DNA of 64,000 nucleotides from Parafannyhessea umbonata. Lineage in GTDB: Bacteria > Actinomycetota > Coriobacteriia > Coriobacteriales > Atopobiaceae. This document shows, piece by piece, positions 2,037-7,437 of this stretch. Positions within the stretch are counted from its first letter, which is position 1, and every line of letters starts with the position of its first letter. A program made the translations under genes and the position numbers. Under the pieces are notes generated by a model. The model worked only from the letters and a program-made list of their open reading frames with translations, ran no database searches and was not told the origin of the DNA. The DNA is taken from NCBI RefSeq assembly GCF_900105025.1, contig NZ_LT629759.1:1612001-1676000 (forward strand), read 5' to 3'.

Positions 2037-2906
2037 CTATTTCTCGATCTCCCGCAGGATCGCGTCGTAGACCTCGGCCTTCGCGAGCGAGAAGGACTTC
2101 GCGAGGCGCTTCGCGAGCTTAGTCTTGGGCTCGCCCTCCTCGAGGCCGGCGCGTATCGCCTCCTCGAGCGACTGGGTCCCCTGACTTGCCGCGTCGCGCC
2201 TTCCCAAGAGCTCCTCCTCCGTGGGGGCGCCGATCACGACGACGCACTCGCCCTTGACCTCGTCCCTCTCCGCGACAAGAGCCGCGAGCTCGGGAGCGTG
2301 GCCCCGGAGGCACTCCTCGTGCACCTTCGTGAGCTCGCGTACGAGGGCGACCTCGCGGTCTGGGAGCACCTCCGCAATGCGCGCCAGCGTCGTCGCGACA
2401 CGATGCGGCGACTCGTACACCACGAGCGCGCCGGGCACGACGGACAGCTCCTCGAGCCTAGCGCGCATGGCGCCCGCCTTGCGCGGCAGGAAGCCCTCGA
2501 AAAAGAAGTGCTCCATGGGAAGGCCGGAGGCGACAAGCGCGCAGATGGCCGCAGACGGCCCCGGAATGACCTCCACGCGCAGCCCCCTGTCGAGTGCCGC
2601 ATCCACCAGCCTCTGGCCAGGGTCGGAGACGCCCGGCATGCCGGCGTCCGAGACAAAGGCGACACGGTCCCCCGCCTCTATGCGCTCGAGCGTCGGCTCC
2701 ACCCTCTGGTCCAACACGTTCTCGTCCGCCCGCTGCAACGGGACGTGCACGTCGAAGCGTGCGAGGAGCTTGCTCGTCACGCGCGTATCCTCGCAGAGCA
2801 GGAGGTCTGCGGACTTCAGGGTCTGGACGACCCTCGGCGATACGTCGGAGAGATTTCCTATGGGGGTGCCCACGACGCTGAGCACGCCCGATGCCGCCGC
2901 GCTCAC
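2037..2906 (-). CDS. rsmI: 16S rRNA 2'-O-ribose C1402 methyltransferase RsmI
   Basis: A 289-residue tetrapyrrole-methylase-fold enzyme. The N-terminus VVGTPIGNLSD (residues 12-22), LCEDTR near 38 and SDAGMPGVSDPG near 86 are hallmarks of RsmI, which methylates the ribose of C1402 in 16S rRNA using SAM. The open frame extends about 126 codons further upstream, but that part is the shadow of the neighbouring gene. I place the start at a GTG (2906-2904) directly before the conserved N-terminus. This GTG overlaps the TGA of the upstream GH5-like gene as GTGA, so translation is probably coupled. The C-terminus carries the usual Lys-rich segment of long RsmI proteins. Confidence 0.94.
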   Translation of the reverse strand: MSAAASGVLSVVGTPIGNLSDVSPRVVQTLKSADLLLCEDTRVTSKLLARFDVHVPLQRADENVLDQRVEPTLERIEAGDRVAFVSDAGMPGVSDPGQRLVDAALDRGLRVEVIPGPSAAICALVASGLPMEHFFFEGFLPRKAGAMRARLEELSVVPGALVVYESPHRVATTLARIAEVLPDREVALVRELTKVHEECLRGHAPELAALVAERDEVKGECVVVIGAPTEEELLGRRDAASQGTQSLEEAIRAGLEEGEPKTKLAKRLAKSFSLAKAEVYDAILREIEK

Positions 2907-3946
2907 GCCAGCATCCTTCGCTCGAAGGATGCGAGGGAGATCCTCGCGTCCCAGCTTGAGAGCTTGCCGTCGGTCTTCCACGTCTGATAGAACCACCCGT
3001 CGCAGTTCTTGAAGGCATTGAGCTGCTCGGAGATGTAGACGCGCTCGAGGGCGATGCGCCCCTCCGGGGTGGTCATGGAGTCCGAGAACGGCAGGGCCGC
3101 AGACCACTTTCCGACCATGACGGGAAGGCCGCTCCTCCTTGCGGCGCGAAGCGACTTCTGGGACTTGTTGACCAGGCTCCTGACGCCTGACGGGCCGGCC
3201 GTCTTGACGCCGTCCGTATAGTGGTAGAGATGGCAGTCGAGCCATACGTTCTTGTAGCGGTCGTGCGCCATGAAGTGACGCCATGAGGCCGGCTCGCCGG
3301 CGTCGGGGATGATGACCCTGACGTCGTCTCCCGCCTCCTGGCGGATGGTGTCGTAGGCATCGCGATAGTAGTTCCGGAGCCTGTGAATCGGAACGCCATC
3401 GGTGAGCGTGAGGCCATGTCTCACCTGTACGGCGGGAGAGTCCGCCACCTCGATGCCCGCGAATGACGCGCGGGTGGCATAGCGCTTGGCGAGCATGCCA
3501 AGGACGGAAACCATGTCATTGCGGTAGTGGGAGAAGTCGTCGTGGTTGCGCACGAGCGACGTCTGGTCGCTCGCGGAACCTGGCGCGATGTCTAGCACGA
3601 GCACGAGGTTGAGGCTTATCTCGTCCGCCCAGTCGAAGGCCTTGTCCACCTTGTCGATGCAGCCGAGGAACGGACCGGCCTCGGGACCGTCGTCCCCGAA
3701 GACGTACCAGGGAACGGGAAGGCGGACAGCGTTGAAACCGCGCGCGGCGATATGGACGAAGTCCGCCTGCTTTATGAAGTCGGCCCTGTGCTCGCTCACG
3801 AGGTCGCGATAGTGACGCTTGCCTAGCGAGCGAACGAGGCTCTCCTCGTCCAGGGCCCCAGAGTCCGCGAACAGGACCGGAGAGACCCACGGCTCGAGCG
3901 TAAGCCAGCCGGAGAGGTTGACCCCATGCAATGCCCTGTCAGACAT
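2903..3946 (-). CDS. GH5-type exo-1,3-beta-glucanase-like protein, predicted catalytically inactive
   Basis: A 347-residue protein that follows the exo-1,3-beta-glucanase branch of glycoside hydrolase family 5 closely: GVNLSGWLTLEPW at residues 8-20, ARGFNAVRLPVPW at 68-80, a C-terminal WFYQTWKTD segment and no signal peptide. The two catalytic glutamates of the family appear to be replaced. The acid/base position (NEP motif) reads VADSP, with Ser at 170; the nucleophile position (GEWSAAL in active relatives) reads GKWSAAL, with Lys at 280. The helper histidine after the fourth strand is also missing (LDIAPGS at 119-125). I therefore read it as a sugar-binding or scaffolding pseudoenzyme. The ATG at 3946 is preferred over the upstream one at 4042 because GGGGA precedes it and a TATACT box lies 38 bases upstream. 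It overlaps rsmI by four bases. Confidence 0.85.
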   Translation of the reverse strand: MSDRALHGVNLSGWLTLEPWVSPVLFADSGALDEESLVRSLGKRHYRDLVSEHRADFIKQADFVHIAARGFNAVRLPVPWYVFGDDGPEAGPFLGCIDKVDKAFDWADEISLNLVLVLDIAPGSASDQTSLVRNHDDFSHYRNDMVSVLGMLAKRYATRASFAGIEVADSPAVQVRHGLTLTDGVPIHRLRNYYRDAYDTIRQEAGDDVRVIIPDAGEPASWRHFMAHDRYKNVWLDCHLYHYTDGVKTAGPSGVRSLVNKSQKSLRAARRSGLPVMVGKWSAALPFSDSMTTPEGRIALERVYISEQLNAFKNCDGWFYQTWKTDGKLSSWDARISLASFERRMLA

Positions 3947-3983: not shown

Positions 3984-3989
3984 AGTATA
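3984..3989 (-). promoter_or_regulatory. -10-like box TATACT upstream of the GH5-like gene
   Basis: On the minus strand a TATACT hexamer sits 38 bases before the ATG at 3946, inside an AT-rich stretch that is unusual for this genome. No good -35 match lies at 17 bases. It gives the GH5-like/rsmI pair a promoter separate from the polymerase gene upstream. Confidence 0.4.
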
Positions 3990-4044
3990 ACCGCTCCACT
4001 GGACACAAGGTGCACAATGGCGTCTTTCGTTCTCGCCACCATGC

Positions 4045-4317
4045 CTAGCCAAGATACGACGGCGGCACCTTCGCCTCGACGAACCAGCGCGGTCCCTCGT
4101 AGTAGAGGAAGGTATCCCTTCCCGCAACGCGAACGGTGTAGCGCATTCCCGTCCCTCCCGTGCGGAGCGAGTGCGCCTGCCGTCGATCGAGTACGCGGTC
4201 GATCTTATAGCGCGTCCCGTCGTCCCATATGACCTCGAGGGGCTTGACCCGCCCCTCCACGTCCGTCTCGGAAAGGACCTCAACATAGTGCTTCCTCCTG
4301 TCGATTATGCCGTCCAC
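4045..4317 (-). CDS. Small protein encoded with a Y-family polymerase, function unknown
   Basis: A 90-residue protein with alternating beta-strand-like segments (VKPLEVIWDDGTRYKIDRV, RYTVRVAG, RWFVEAKV) and no membrane segment. It starts 11 bases after the stop of the Y-family polymerase gene and shares its transcript, so it probably comes under the same SOS box. Small accessory genes are common next to non-housekeeping Y-family polymerases in Gram-positive bacteria (YolD-like proteins beside UvrX, and small DUF proteins beside ImuB-like genes). The strand pattern is compatible with one of these, but I do not recognise a named family with certainty. A role in translesion synthesis is inferred from context only. 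Confidence 0.75.
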   Translation of the reverse strand: MDGIIDRRKHYVEVLSETDVEGRVKPLEVIWDDGTRYKIDRVLDRRQAHSLRTGGTGMRYTVRVAGRDTFLYYEGPRWFVEAKVPPSYLG

Positions 4318-4328
4318 AAGGGCTCACC

Positions 4329-5603
4329 TCACGCAAAGTACGAGACGGGATGGGTAAAGTGATCGCGCTCGGGGTCGAGGTCAGAGAGCCGTGGATCGAG
4401 CAGCTCCGACGCACGCCTAACCGCATGGTTGCCGAAGCGGTGTCTGAGCTCGTCCATCGACTCGTCGAGCGCACGCTGCCGCAGGCGCCTCTCCTCCACA
4501 CCCTCGATGTCAAGCTGCACGGGACGCATCGCAGGAACCAGGTTCGATGCTCGAACCCCGATTGCGCGGATCTTCTCGTACCTGAAGTCCCAGTCCGACA
4601 CGAGGAGGCTCGCGGCGAGGGAGCATATCTCGGTCGTGATGTTGCTGGGACGGTCGAGCCGAGCCTGGTGGCTGTGGCAGGCAAGCGTGCGGAAGTCGCG
4701 GCCCGTTGCCGATACGGTGCGCGCCATGAGACCAAGCTGCCTGAGCCTCTGGGAAACGGACTCGCCCATGAGCCAGACCACCTGTCTGGCCGTGCGCGCG
4801 TCCTCCACGTCGAAAGGGCAGGTTATGCCGTTGCCCACGCTCTTCACCTCCCGCTCCGTGTCCGTAATGGCAAGGTCGAGCGGCCGGACGGGACTCGCGT
4901 CTCTGCCTTGGGCGAAGGCCTGGACGACGAGGCCGGGCTTGCCGAGCGCTCGTCTGACGAAGGCGGGGTCCGCACGGGCAAGCTGGCCTATGGTCCAGAT
5001 GCCAAAGTGGTTGAGCTTGTGCTCCGTGGCAGGCCCCACGTAGAGGAGGTCTCCCACCGGAGCCTTCCACACGAGGTCGCAGGCGTTGTCCGGAAGCACC
5101 TCCATGTAGCCGTCCGGCTTGTCGTGGTCGCTTCCGAACTTGGCGAAGATCTTGTTCCACGAGTACCCGATGGAGCACGTTATGCCAAGCTCATGCTTTA
5201 TGCGGTTGGAGATGGAGGCCGCAACGGAGCGGACGTCGCCTCCCCACAGGTGGATGGAGCCCGTGAGGTCGAGCCACGCCTCATCGGGACCAAAGGGCTC
5301 CACGAGGTCCGTATAGTTGTAGTAGATGCGACGTGCCGCGTTCGAGTAGCGACGGTAGAGCTCGTAGCGCGGCGGGACGATCACCGCGTCCGGGCAGGCC
5401 TGGCGCGCCTGCCAGAGCGCCATGGCCGTCTTGACGCCGCGACGCTTGGCCTCGTAGCTCGCTGTCAGCACGATGCCGTGCCTGAGCTCCTCGTTTCCGC
5501 CCACGACAAGCGGGCGACCCCTGAGCTCCGGCCGTTCCGCCTGCTCGACGCTCGCATAGAAGGCGTTCATGTCACAGTGCAGGATCTTGCGCGACGTGTC
5601 CAC
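4329..5603 (-). CDS. Y-family translesion DNA polymerase (UvrX/ImuB-like DinB superfamily)
   Basis: A 424-residue error-prone polymerase of the UmuC/DinB superfamily. The catalytic metal ligands are visible: CDMNAFYASVE (Asp11) and the DEAWLDL motif at 107-113, which reads DEA[FY] in many DinB proteins. A helix-hairpin-helix region and a little-finger domain follow. No beta-clamp motif is obvious at the C-terminus. The frame opens at 5627, but GGAGGGGG lies directly before a GTG at 5603-5601, which I take as the start. A perfect Gram-positive LexA box lies about 30 bases upstream, so the gene should be induced by DNA damage. It probably copies past lesions as part of a damage-inducible mutagenesis cassette with the small gene downstream. 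Confidence 0.92.
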   Translation of the reverse strand: MDTSRKILHCDMNAFYASVEQAERPELRGRPLVVGGNEELRHGIVLTASYEAKRRGVKTAMALWQARQACPDAVIVPPRYELYRRYSNAARRIYYNYTDLVEPFGPDEAWLDLTGSIHLWGGDVRSVAASISNRIKHELGITCSIGYSWNKIFAKFGSDHDKPDGYMEVLPDNACDLVWKAPVGDLLYVGPATEHKLNHFGIWTIGQLARADPAFVRRALGKPGLVVQAFAQGRDASPVRPLDLAITDTEREVKSVGNGITCPFDVEDARTARQVVWLMGESVSQRLRQLGLMARTVSATGRDFRTLACHSHQARLDRPSNITTEICSLAASLLVSDWDFRYEKIRAIGVRASNLVPAMRPVQLDIEGVEERRLRQRALDESMDELRHRFGNHAVRRASELLDPRLSDLDPERDHFTHPVSYFA

Positions 5604-5630
5604 CGTTCCCCCTCCGACAACATCCATTTA

Positions 5631-5841: not shown

Positions 5842-7437
5842 CTACTCTGAGGACGGCTTGGGACCGTTGTCGGAGGGCCTTGCGGAGGAGTCTCCGCCCG
5901 GCTTGCCTCCGCCGCGATGGCGACGGCGGCGCTTGGGCTTGTCAGAGCCCTCGGCCGATGACGGGGACGTGCCCTTCGCGCGAGGCGGGCGCTGACTGCC
6001 GGCACCGTCGCCGGGCTGCTGGCCGCCGCGGTCGCCAGGGTGACGGCGGCGCTTGCCGCCCTCAGGCCTTGGCGCCCCTCCCCTCTGCCTCTGGGGACGA
6101 GCCTGGCCGTCCGCACGAGACTGCGTCCTCCCGTCCTGGGAGGGGGCGTCGCCCTCGGCCGTGCGGTGGTGACGACGGCGATGCATGCCGCCCGAGCGGG
6201 TCGGGGGCTGGGAGGCCGCGTCCTTCTCGCCCTGGCGACGCTCGTTCTTCGGAGTGCGGTCCTGGGGCTGTGCCTCTCCCTCCGCCGACTTCTTGCGGCG
6301 GCGACGGCGCGGCGCCTTGTCGGCGGAGGCGCCGTCAGCGGAGGCCTCCGGCGCGGACTTCGCGTGCTTGGGACGCGGACGCTGGGCGGCATCGGCCGCG
6401 GGGTCCTGCGCCTGTCCGCCGGAGCGGCGGCGCCTGCGCGGGCGCGACTCGACGAAGATGTCGGAGTCGTCGTAGGTCTCCGCGGGGGCGACGCCGTTCT
6501 TGCGGTCGAGCTCGGCCAGGGCCATCTGCACCTCGGGGGACTGCAGCTTCTCCAGCGCGGAGCGGGTCACGGTGTCGGGGCGGCAGGCGCAGCCCAGCTC
6601 CTCGCTCTTCTTGTGCGCGGCCGGTGACGCCTCCATGTCCGCAAGGGCGACGCGGACCTGCTTGCCGTTCTCAAGGCGCAGGCAGAGCTGCTCCTTCGGG
6701 GTGTCGTACTCCACGATCTTCGCCTTGCCCAGGGGCGTGTCGATCACGGCGTTGCGCTTGGGCGCGCGGCTCTTGAAGTCGCGGTACGCCTCGAACTCGT
6801 AGCGCAGGCAGCACATGAGCCGTCCGCACGCGCCGGAGATCTTGGACGAGTTGAGGGGCAGGTCCTGCTCCTTTGCCATGCGGATCGAGACCGGCTCGAA
6901 GCGCCTGCCAAAGCGCGTGCAGCACAGCTCCTGGCCGCAGTGGCCAAAGCCGCCCACGATGGCGGCCTCCTCGCGTACGCCTATCTGGCGCATGTCCACG
7001 CGCTCGTGCAGCTCGCGCGAGAGGTCGCGCACCAGCTGGCGGAAGTCTACGCGGTCCTCCGCCGAGAAGTAGCACACGACCTTGCCGCCGCCAAACAGGT
7101 ACTCGACGCCCACGGGCTTCATGTCGAGACCGGACTCGTGCGCAAGCCTGCTGAACGTGGGGAAGGCCTCGTCCCCGCGCTGCGCCAGCATGTCCGCGCG
7201 CGCGAGGTCCTGGTCGGTCGCGACGCGCACCACGGGCTGGAGCCTGCCGGCCTCGCCAATAACCTCGCGCAGGCGCTCTGGGGTGACCTCCTGCGCATCC
7301 ATGGTCGCAAGGCCGATCTCCTGGCCGCGCTCCGTGGTGCAGATGACGTGGTCGCCCTCCTGGGCGCCGGTCCTTCCCGGATCAAACCACAGGTCGTGGG
7401 CCGCATATTTGAACTTCACCGCTAGTACGGTGGGCAT
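5842..7437 (-). CDS. ricT: PSP1-domain protein RicT (YaaT) with long basic disordered tail
   Basis: A 531-residue protein. Residues 1-300 form the PSP1/RicT domain with its cysteine signatures GHCGQELCC (166-173) and GACGRLMCC (202-210). In Firmicutes RicT pairs with RicA and RicF, carries Fe-S clusters and assists RNase Y-dependent mRNA processing. From about residue 310 the chain becomes a roughly 220-residue Arg/Lys/Gly/Gln-rich disordered tail with RRRRR blocks, much longer than in Bacillus YaaT and likely to bind RNA. The ATG at 7437 follows GGAGGC and overlaps the end of holB by 16 bases; holB-ricT (yaaT) is a conserved gene pair. One GGCGAGAA octamer falls in the tail as Gly-Glu-Lys. 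Confidence 0.92.
   Translation of the reverse strand: MPTVLAVKFKYAAHDLWFDPGRTGAQEGDHVICTTERGQEIGLATMDAQEVTPERLREVIGEAGRLQPVVRVATDQDLARADMLAQRGDEAFPTFSRLAHESGLDMKPVGVEYLFGGGKVVCYFSAEDRVDFRQLVRDLSRELHERVDMRQIGVREEAAIVGGFGHCGQELCCTRFGRRFEPVSIRMAKEQDLPLNSSKISGACGRLMCCLRYEFEAYRDFKSRAPKRNAVIDTPLGKAKIVEYDTPKEQLCLRLENGKQVRVALADMEASPAAHKKSEELGCACRPDTVTRSALEKLQSPEVQMALAELDRKNGVAPAETYDDSDIFVESRPRRRRRSGGQAQDPAADAAQRPRPKHAKSAPEASADGASADKAPRRRRRKKSAEGEAQPQDRTPKNERRQGEKDAASQPPTRSGGMHRRRHHRTAEGDAPSQDGRTQSRADGQARPQRQRGGAPRPEGGKRRRHPGDRGGQQPGDGAGSQRPPRAKGTSPSSAEGSDKPKRRRRHRGGGKPGGDSSARPSDNGPKPSSE

Follow-up and report, generated by a model that had tools for sequence, protein, structure and literature searches.

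A gene that retains the fold of a glycosidase after losing its catalytic residues, and that lies directly ahead of an rRNA methyltransferase gene, raises the question of what its product is kept for. The gene considered here occupies positions 2903-3946 of the window, by which we mean the whole 64,000-nucleotide stretch of Parafannyhessea umbonata DNA that was analyzed; it lies on the minus strand, as do all other window features mentioned below. Its reading frame is intact and encodes 347 amino acids, which the open reading frame, Pfam, structure searches and an AlphaFold model together define as a GH5 exo-1,3-glucanase-like pseudoenzyme with a (beta/alpha)8 barrel. The Pfam profile PF00150 (Cellulase) matches the window protein at 7.3e-8, exceeding the curated cut-off, and also matches 27 of the 27 orthologues tested. 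Among solved structures, the exo-beta-1,3-glucanase PDB 6zb9 comes closest (phmmer, E ~9e-38), followed, after its E167Q/E295Q mutant 6zb8, by enzymes of Aspergillus and Candida. The closest solved relatives are thus exo-1,3-glucanases, and GH5_9, a fungal subfamily as defined in 2012 (PMC3526467), is used here as a nearest-relative label only. An AlphaFold model built from 27 orthologues (pLDDT 82, pTM 0.86, with low confidence in the loops on the active-site side) resembles 6zb9 more than any other structure compared (Z 36.6, with an rmsd of 2.8 over 332 residues). The window protein therefore has the GH5 fold of the exo-beta-1,3-glucanase type, as an earlier, sequence-only reading of this DNA had proposed, and the structural modeling named there as a check bore this out. 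No signal peptide is visible in the sequence of the protein, in agreement with the cytoplasmic location that the same reading had assumed.

The two catalytic positions are occupied by other residues. At the acid/base site, at the end of beta-4 (NEP in active enzymes), phmmer aligns GIEPINEP of 6zb9 without gaps to GIEVADSP of the window protein, and at the nucleophile site, at the end of beta-7 (GEW), VVVGEWC to VMVGKWS. By these alignments Ser170 (TCT, 3437-3439) and Lys280 (AAG, 3107-3109) are the counterparts of E167 and E295 of 6zb9, standing where an active retaining glycosidase carries its two glutamates. A misalignment of the catalytic site was ruled out by the absence of gaps at both motifs together with the consistent neighboring residues in 99 orthologues, and a sequencing error is excluded by two close genomes in which K280 is retained and position 170 is D or S. 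The replacement of both glutamates had already been noticed from the letters, as had the loss of the helper His (DLHxxP motif), which the orthologue alignment places at Asp119 (3590-3592). That list of changes was incomplete: the Asn ahead of the acid/base is replaced by Asp169 (3440-3442; orthologue alignment), and the Trp that beta-8 contributes to the -1 subsite by Gln321 (2984-2986; alignment to 6zb9 and to orthologues). The -1 subsite set (Arg, His, Asn, His, Tyr, Trp) is accordingly broken at its first His, Asn and Trp, and only three of the eight canonical GH5 active-site residues are retained (R75, H239 and Y241). Since retaining GH5 chemistry requires both carboxylates, the window protein is predicted to have no retaining-glycosidase activity, and its residues likewise argue against exo-1,3-glucanase activity.

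The sequence-only reading had described the dead site for one gene, and comparison with 99 distinct orthologues showed that it extends well beyond it, to two families of gut and oral bacteria, the Atopobiaceae and a second one that is probably the Coriobacteriaceae (its large genus would then be Collinsella). The helper His is present in none of the 99 orthologues and in 5/5 active-type paralogues, the beta-8 Trp in none and in 4/5, respectively, and the Asn ahead of the acid/base is Asp in 84/99. No orthologue retains more than six of the eight canonical residues, while four of the five paralogues retain all eight and the fifth retains seven. Position 170 is E in 31, D in 28 and S in 26 orthologues, the others having A, T, N, R, Q or G, and its entropy exceeds that of 71% of positions; position 280 is K in 45, E in 41, A in eight, S in three and T in two. 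As to whether the replacements are conserved, the loss of His and Trp is so throughout (99/99) and the exact residues are not, position 170 being free and position 280 having K, A, S or T within the clade described next. An orthologue tree from which the columns of the acid/base, of the residue before it and of the nucleophile had been removed places a single loss of the nucleophile Glu, never reversed, at the root of a large Atopobiaceae clade (46 rows, SH-aLRT 99) that includes the window; Lys predominates in that clade at position 280. At the acid/base position, Glu was gained or lost 14 times or more. Both catalytic Glu are retained in 13/99 orthologues, all of them without helper His and beta-8 Trp, and in the second family E280 and D169 are each present in 22/22, so that some of these early branches might retain chemistry. 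Y241 and, less often, H239 are missing in part of the nucleophile-loss clade. The most degraded active site among the orthologues was observed in a subclade of rumen and gut Atopobiaceae (L052-L055), in which the beta-6 His and Tyr are also gone (SFT, SMR) and the nucleophile is A or S. A salt bridge between K280 and D/E170 in place of the catalytic pair was considered and rejected: D or E stands at position 170 in 40 of the 45 K280 sequences, yet the association is not significant because only three independent pairs exist, and the window protein itself has S170.

The gene itself is under constraint. Estimates of dN/dS by the Nei-Gojobori method ranged from 0.018 to 0.28 among orthologues (median ~0.09, some dS values being near saturation), and were below those of the neighboring rsmI in 18 of 21 estimable pairs, not all of which are independent. 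Invariant among the orthologues are R75, W281, T293, E295-G296, R302, T322-W323-K324-T325 and W332, and the reading frame is intact in 99/99. A protein without a role would not be expected to show such low dN/dS and such invariant residues. With its catalytic residues lost and its fold and gene under purifying selection, the GH5 gene is a maintained pseudo-glycosidase, and the earlier statement that it is not a decayed gene holds.

The orthologue is a single-copy gene in almost all Atopobiaceae and in the second family. Matches were found in 133 of 140 Atopobiaceae genomes, including two with paralogue-level matches only (G153, G162) and one with a 44-residue piece (G015). These three, together with G130 and two highly incomplete assemblies (G011, G108), gave no rsmI match either, which suggests that the region is missing from the assembly and that their lack of a full orthologue is probably an assembly gap. 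A true absence was found in one genus (g31), which keeps rsmI. At one of its loci (L165) a PTPS/queD-like gene (L165:5240-5665) lies directly before rsmI, in the usual place of the GH5 gene, and two others (L166, L167) likewise have no GH5 gene ahead of rsmI. Since the RsmI of this genus nests inside the Atopobiaceae in the RsmI tree, the GH5 gene was lost there and RsmI can work without it. In the same tree, the RsmI proteins of L031/L111 and L032/L112 sit on very long branches, hinting at an altered or fast-evolving RsmI. No match to the orthologue was found in the sampled genomes of the other families of the order, and 396 genomes across the phylum gave further matches that were weak and partial only. 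A mobile or phage gene was ruled out, as there was no phage match, none in viral contigs, and plasmid matches reached at most ~30% identity.

The linkage of this gene to rsmI is as tight as the first inspection had indicated. In the window, the GTG start of rsmI (2037-2906; TIGR00096, 1.3e-67), the gene for the 16S rRNA C1402 2'-O-methyltransferase, overlaps the GH5 stop by four bases (GTGA), and wherever an orthologue locus extends far enough to reveal the order, rsmI follows the GH5 gene directly. Stop and start overlap in most Atopobiaceae, often by 1-4 bases, whereas in the second family the gap between them ranges from a few bases to some dozens. Long open frames in G136, G156 and G122 that could pass for a GH5-RsmI fusion proved to be overlapping GC-rich frames. 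Downstream lies metG (233-1837), as in most relatives, while the genes upstream vary, being dinB with a 90-aa ORF, PSP1-holB-tmk, or others. In the window these are the 90-aa ORF (4045-4317), a DinB/ImpB-type Y-family polymerase gene (4329-5627) and a gene for a PSP1-domain protein (5842-7437), the last forming a common upstream block with holB and tmk. The 90-aa ORF, located between the polymerase and GH5 genes, matches no family of Pfam or NCBIfam and is conserved in several relatives. A -10-like hexamer, TATACT (3984-3989), is found 43 nt upstream of the GH5 start codon, and a hexamer of this type occurs within 110 nt upstream in 67 of the 99 orthologues, against 7 expected. The motif TGTCC stands 11 nt upstream of it in the window (together 3984-4005; TTGTGTCC-N11-TATACT spans 3984-4008) and recurs upstream of orthologues, often with the hexamer. 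A regulon motif was ruled out, since TGTCC-N11-TATACT has a single site in its own genome and is thus gene-specific; its spacing is unlike that of a standard -35/-10 pair, and it may be a regulator site. In several loci of the second family a hairpin with a T-run, resembling a terminator by eye, lies shortly ahead of the GH5 gene, which together with the hexamer suggests that GH5 is probably the first gene of a GH5-rsmI transcription unit.

Comparison with known systems helps to place this protein. With its exo-1,3-glucanase relatives, including the Aspergillus enzyme AoBgl (8z2w), it shares the whole fold (Z 33-37), the N-terminal GVNLxGWL.LEPW, VR.PVPW and the beta-7 G.W, and with the fungal ones also the beta-8 TWKT. 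It differs from them in its low identity (~25-29%), in the replaced helper His, Asn, acid/base, nucleophile and beta-8 Trp, in a short beta-7/alpha-7 segment with the motif MTPEGRxALxR, and in being a cytoplasmic protein whose gene adjoins rsmI. The active-type paralogues (L038-L041 and L149, from some Atopobiaceae and one genome of the second family) belong to the same GH5 sub-branch at 27-32% identity, whereas they retain DLH, NEP and GEW and sit elsewhere, without rsmI. Inactive GH5 lineages are already known: GH5_30, a fungal subfamily placed among mannan-type subfamilies, is entirely inactive (Aspeborg et al., 2012, PMC3526467), and an expansin-linked Xanthomonas subgroup is another case (PMC3526467). 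Like GH5_30, the present lineage as a whole lacks the catalytic machinery, but by description it is bacterial, glucanase-like and locked in an operon. In Clostridium thermocellum, Rsi24C-GH5 acts as a sensor that binds cellulose despite the loss of its acid/base (PMC3526467), a precedent that counts for a non-catalytic binding role in the window protein as well, although Rsi24C-GH5 is the extracellular sensor domain of an anti-sigma factor and the window protein is free and cytoplasmic. Our literature search found no paper joining Atopobiaceae and rsmI and, in the open-licence literature, none on this GH5 protein. An inactive lineage that is bacterial and cytoplasmic, is inherited vertically in single copy and is locked to rsmI thus appears to be undescribed.

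With moderate confidence, we propose that the product is a pseudo-glycosidase of the cytoplasm, retained for a task other than catalysis, of which binding a ligand or partner is the likeliest, and that its gene opens a unit shared with rsmI. The exo-1,3-glucanase barrel would have become incapable of retaining catalysis by double displacement, and a saccharide, a sugar-like molecule or a partner would bind at the entrance to the former active site, as the conserved aromatic and Arg residues suggest. A beta-linked gluco-oligosaccharide or other sugar compound would be the first candidate, and the second a partner, protein or RNA, with a link to RsmI; translation of rsmI would be coupled to that of GH5. 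The partial loss of Y241 and H239, expected aids in sugar binding, counts against the ligand. No active GH5 paralogue was found in the window's own genome, and hence the protein is not simply the regulator of a sister enzyme.

Other explanations draw on the same data. If the barrel, without catalysis, took part in the work of RsmI or in ribosome maturation, binding RsmI, 16S rRNA or a pre-30S particle, it would have a consequence for RsmI or the ribosome, and the invariant GH5-rsmI adjacency in two families, the frequent overlap of 1-4 bases and the translation-related neighborhood with metG would be explained; we nevertheless regard this as rather unlikely, because genus g31 dispensed with GH5 and kept rsmI beside a PTPS/queD-like gene, the gene is missing from the sampled genomes of the order's other families, no fusion was found, and in compact bacterial operons adjacency does not imply interaction. 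It also seems quite unlikely that the protein is an enzyme with new chemistry, in which other conserved residues of the same barrel, for example T293, E295, R302 and K324, or D169 paired with E280 where the latter is kept, would form a new active site. The invariance of the TxEG..A motif and of the TWKT residues, that of E280 and D169 in the second family and the strong selection on the gene are consistent with it, but TWKT occurs in the active fungal relative 8z2w too (WTWKTE) and is no new invention, the gene is still kept in the clade in which E280 became K, A, S or T, and no invariant new acidic pair was identified at the strand ends.

The overlap with the rsmI start and the promoter-like site upstream could also mean that GH5 is a leader ORF, whose translation matters for coupling to rsmI and whose product matters little. 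This is very improbable, given that over short distances the amino-acid conservation of the GH5 protein exceeds that of RsmI and that invariant motifs extend over its full length. Almost no credence is left for a decaying pseudogene, which would account for the missing catalytic residues and is refuted by the selection data, by the intact frames and by near-universal retention. Beyond the binding role, we consider it decidedly doubtful that the barrel was captured in the common ancestor of the Atopobiaceae and their sister family as a housekeeping protein of the translation operon, gave up catalysis step by step and today works in the cytoplasm together with RsmI or the ribosome; if true, a sugar or metabolite signal, for instance, could be tied to methylation of the decoding center.

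For the organisms that carry it, the gene has a practical consequence, since profile searches call it a GH5 cellulase and their CAZyme counts may be one too high. The orthologues also show, in a single syntenic gene present once per genome, catalytic residues disappearing by degrees in nature, a series that could serve studies of how an enzyme turns into a pseudoenzyme. The constant pairing with the gene for an rRNA methyltransferase, in turn, opens a direct way of testing whether a sugar-binding fold is linked to translation.
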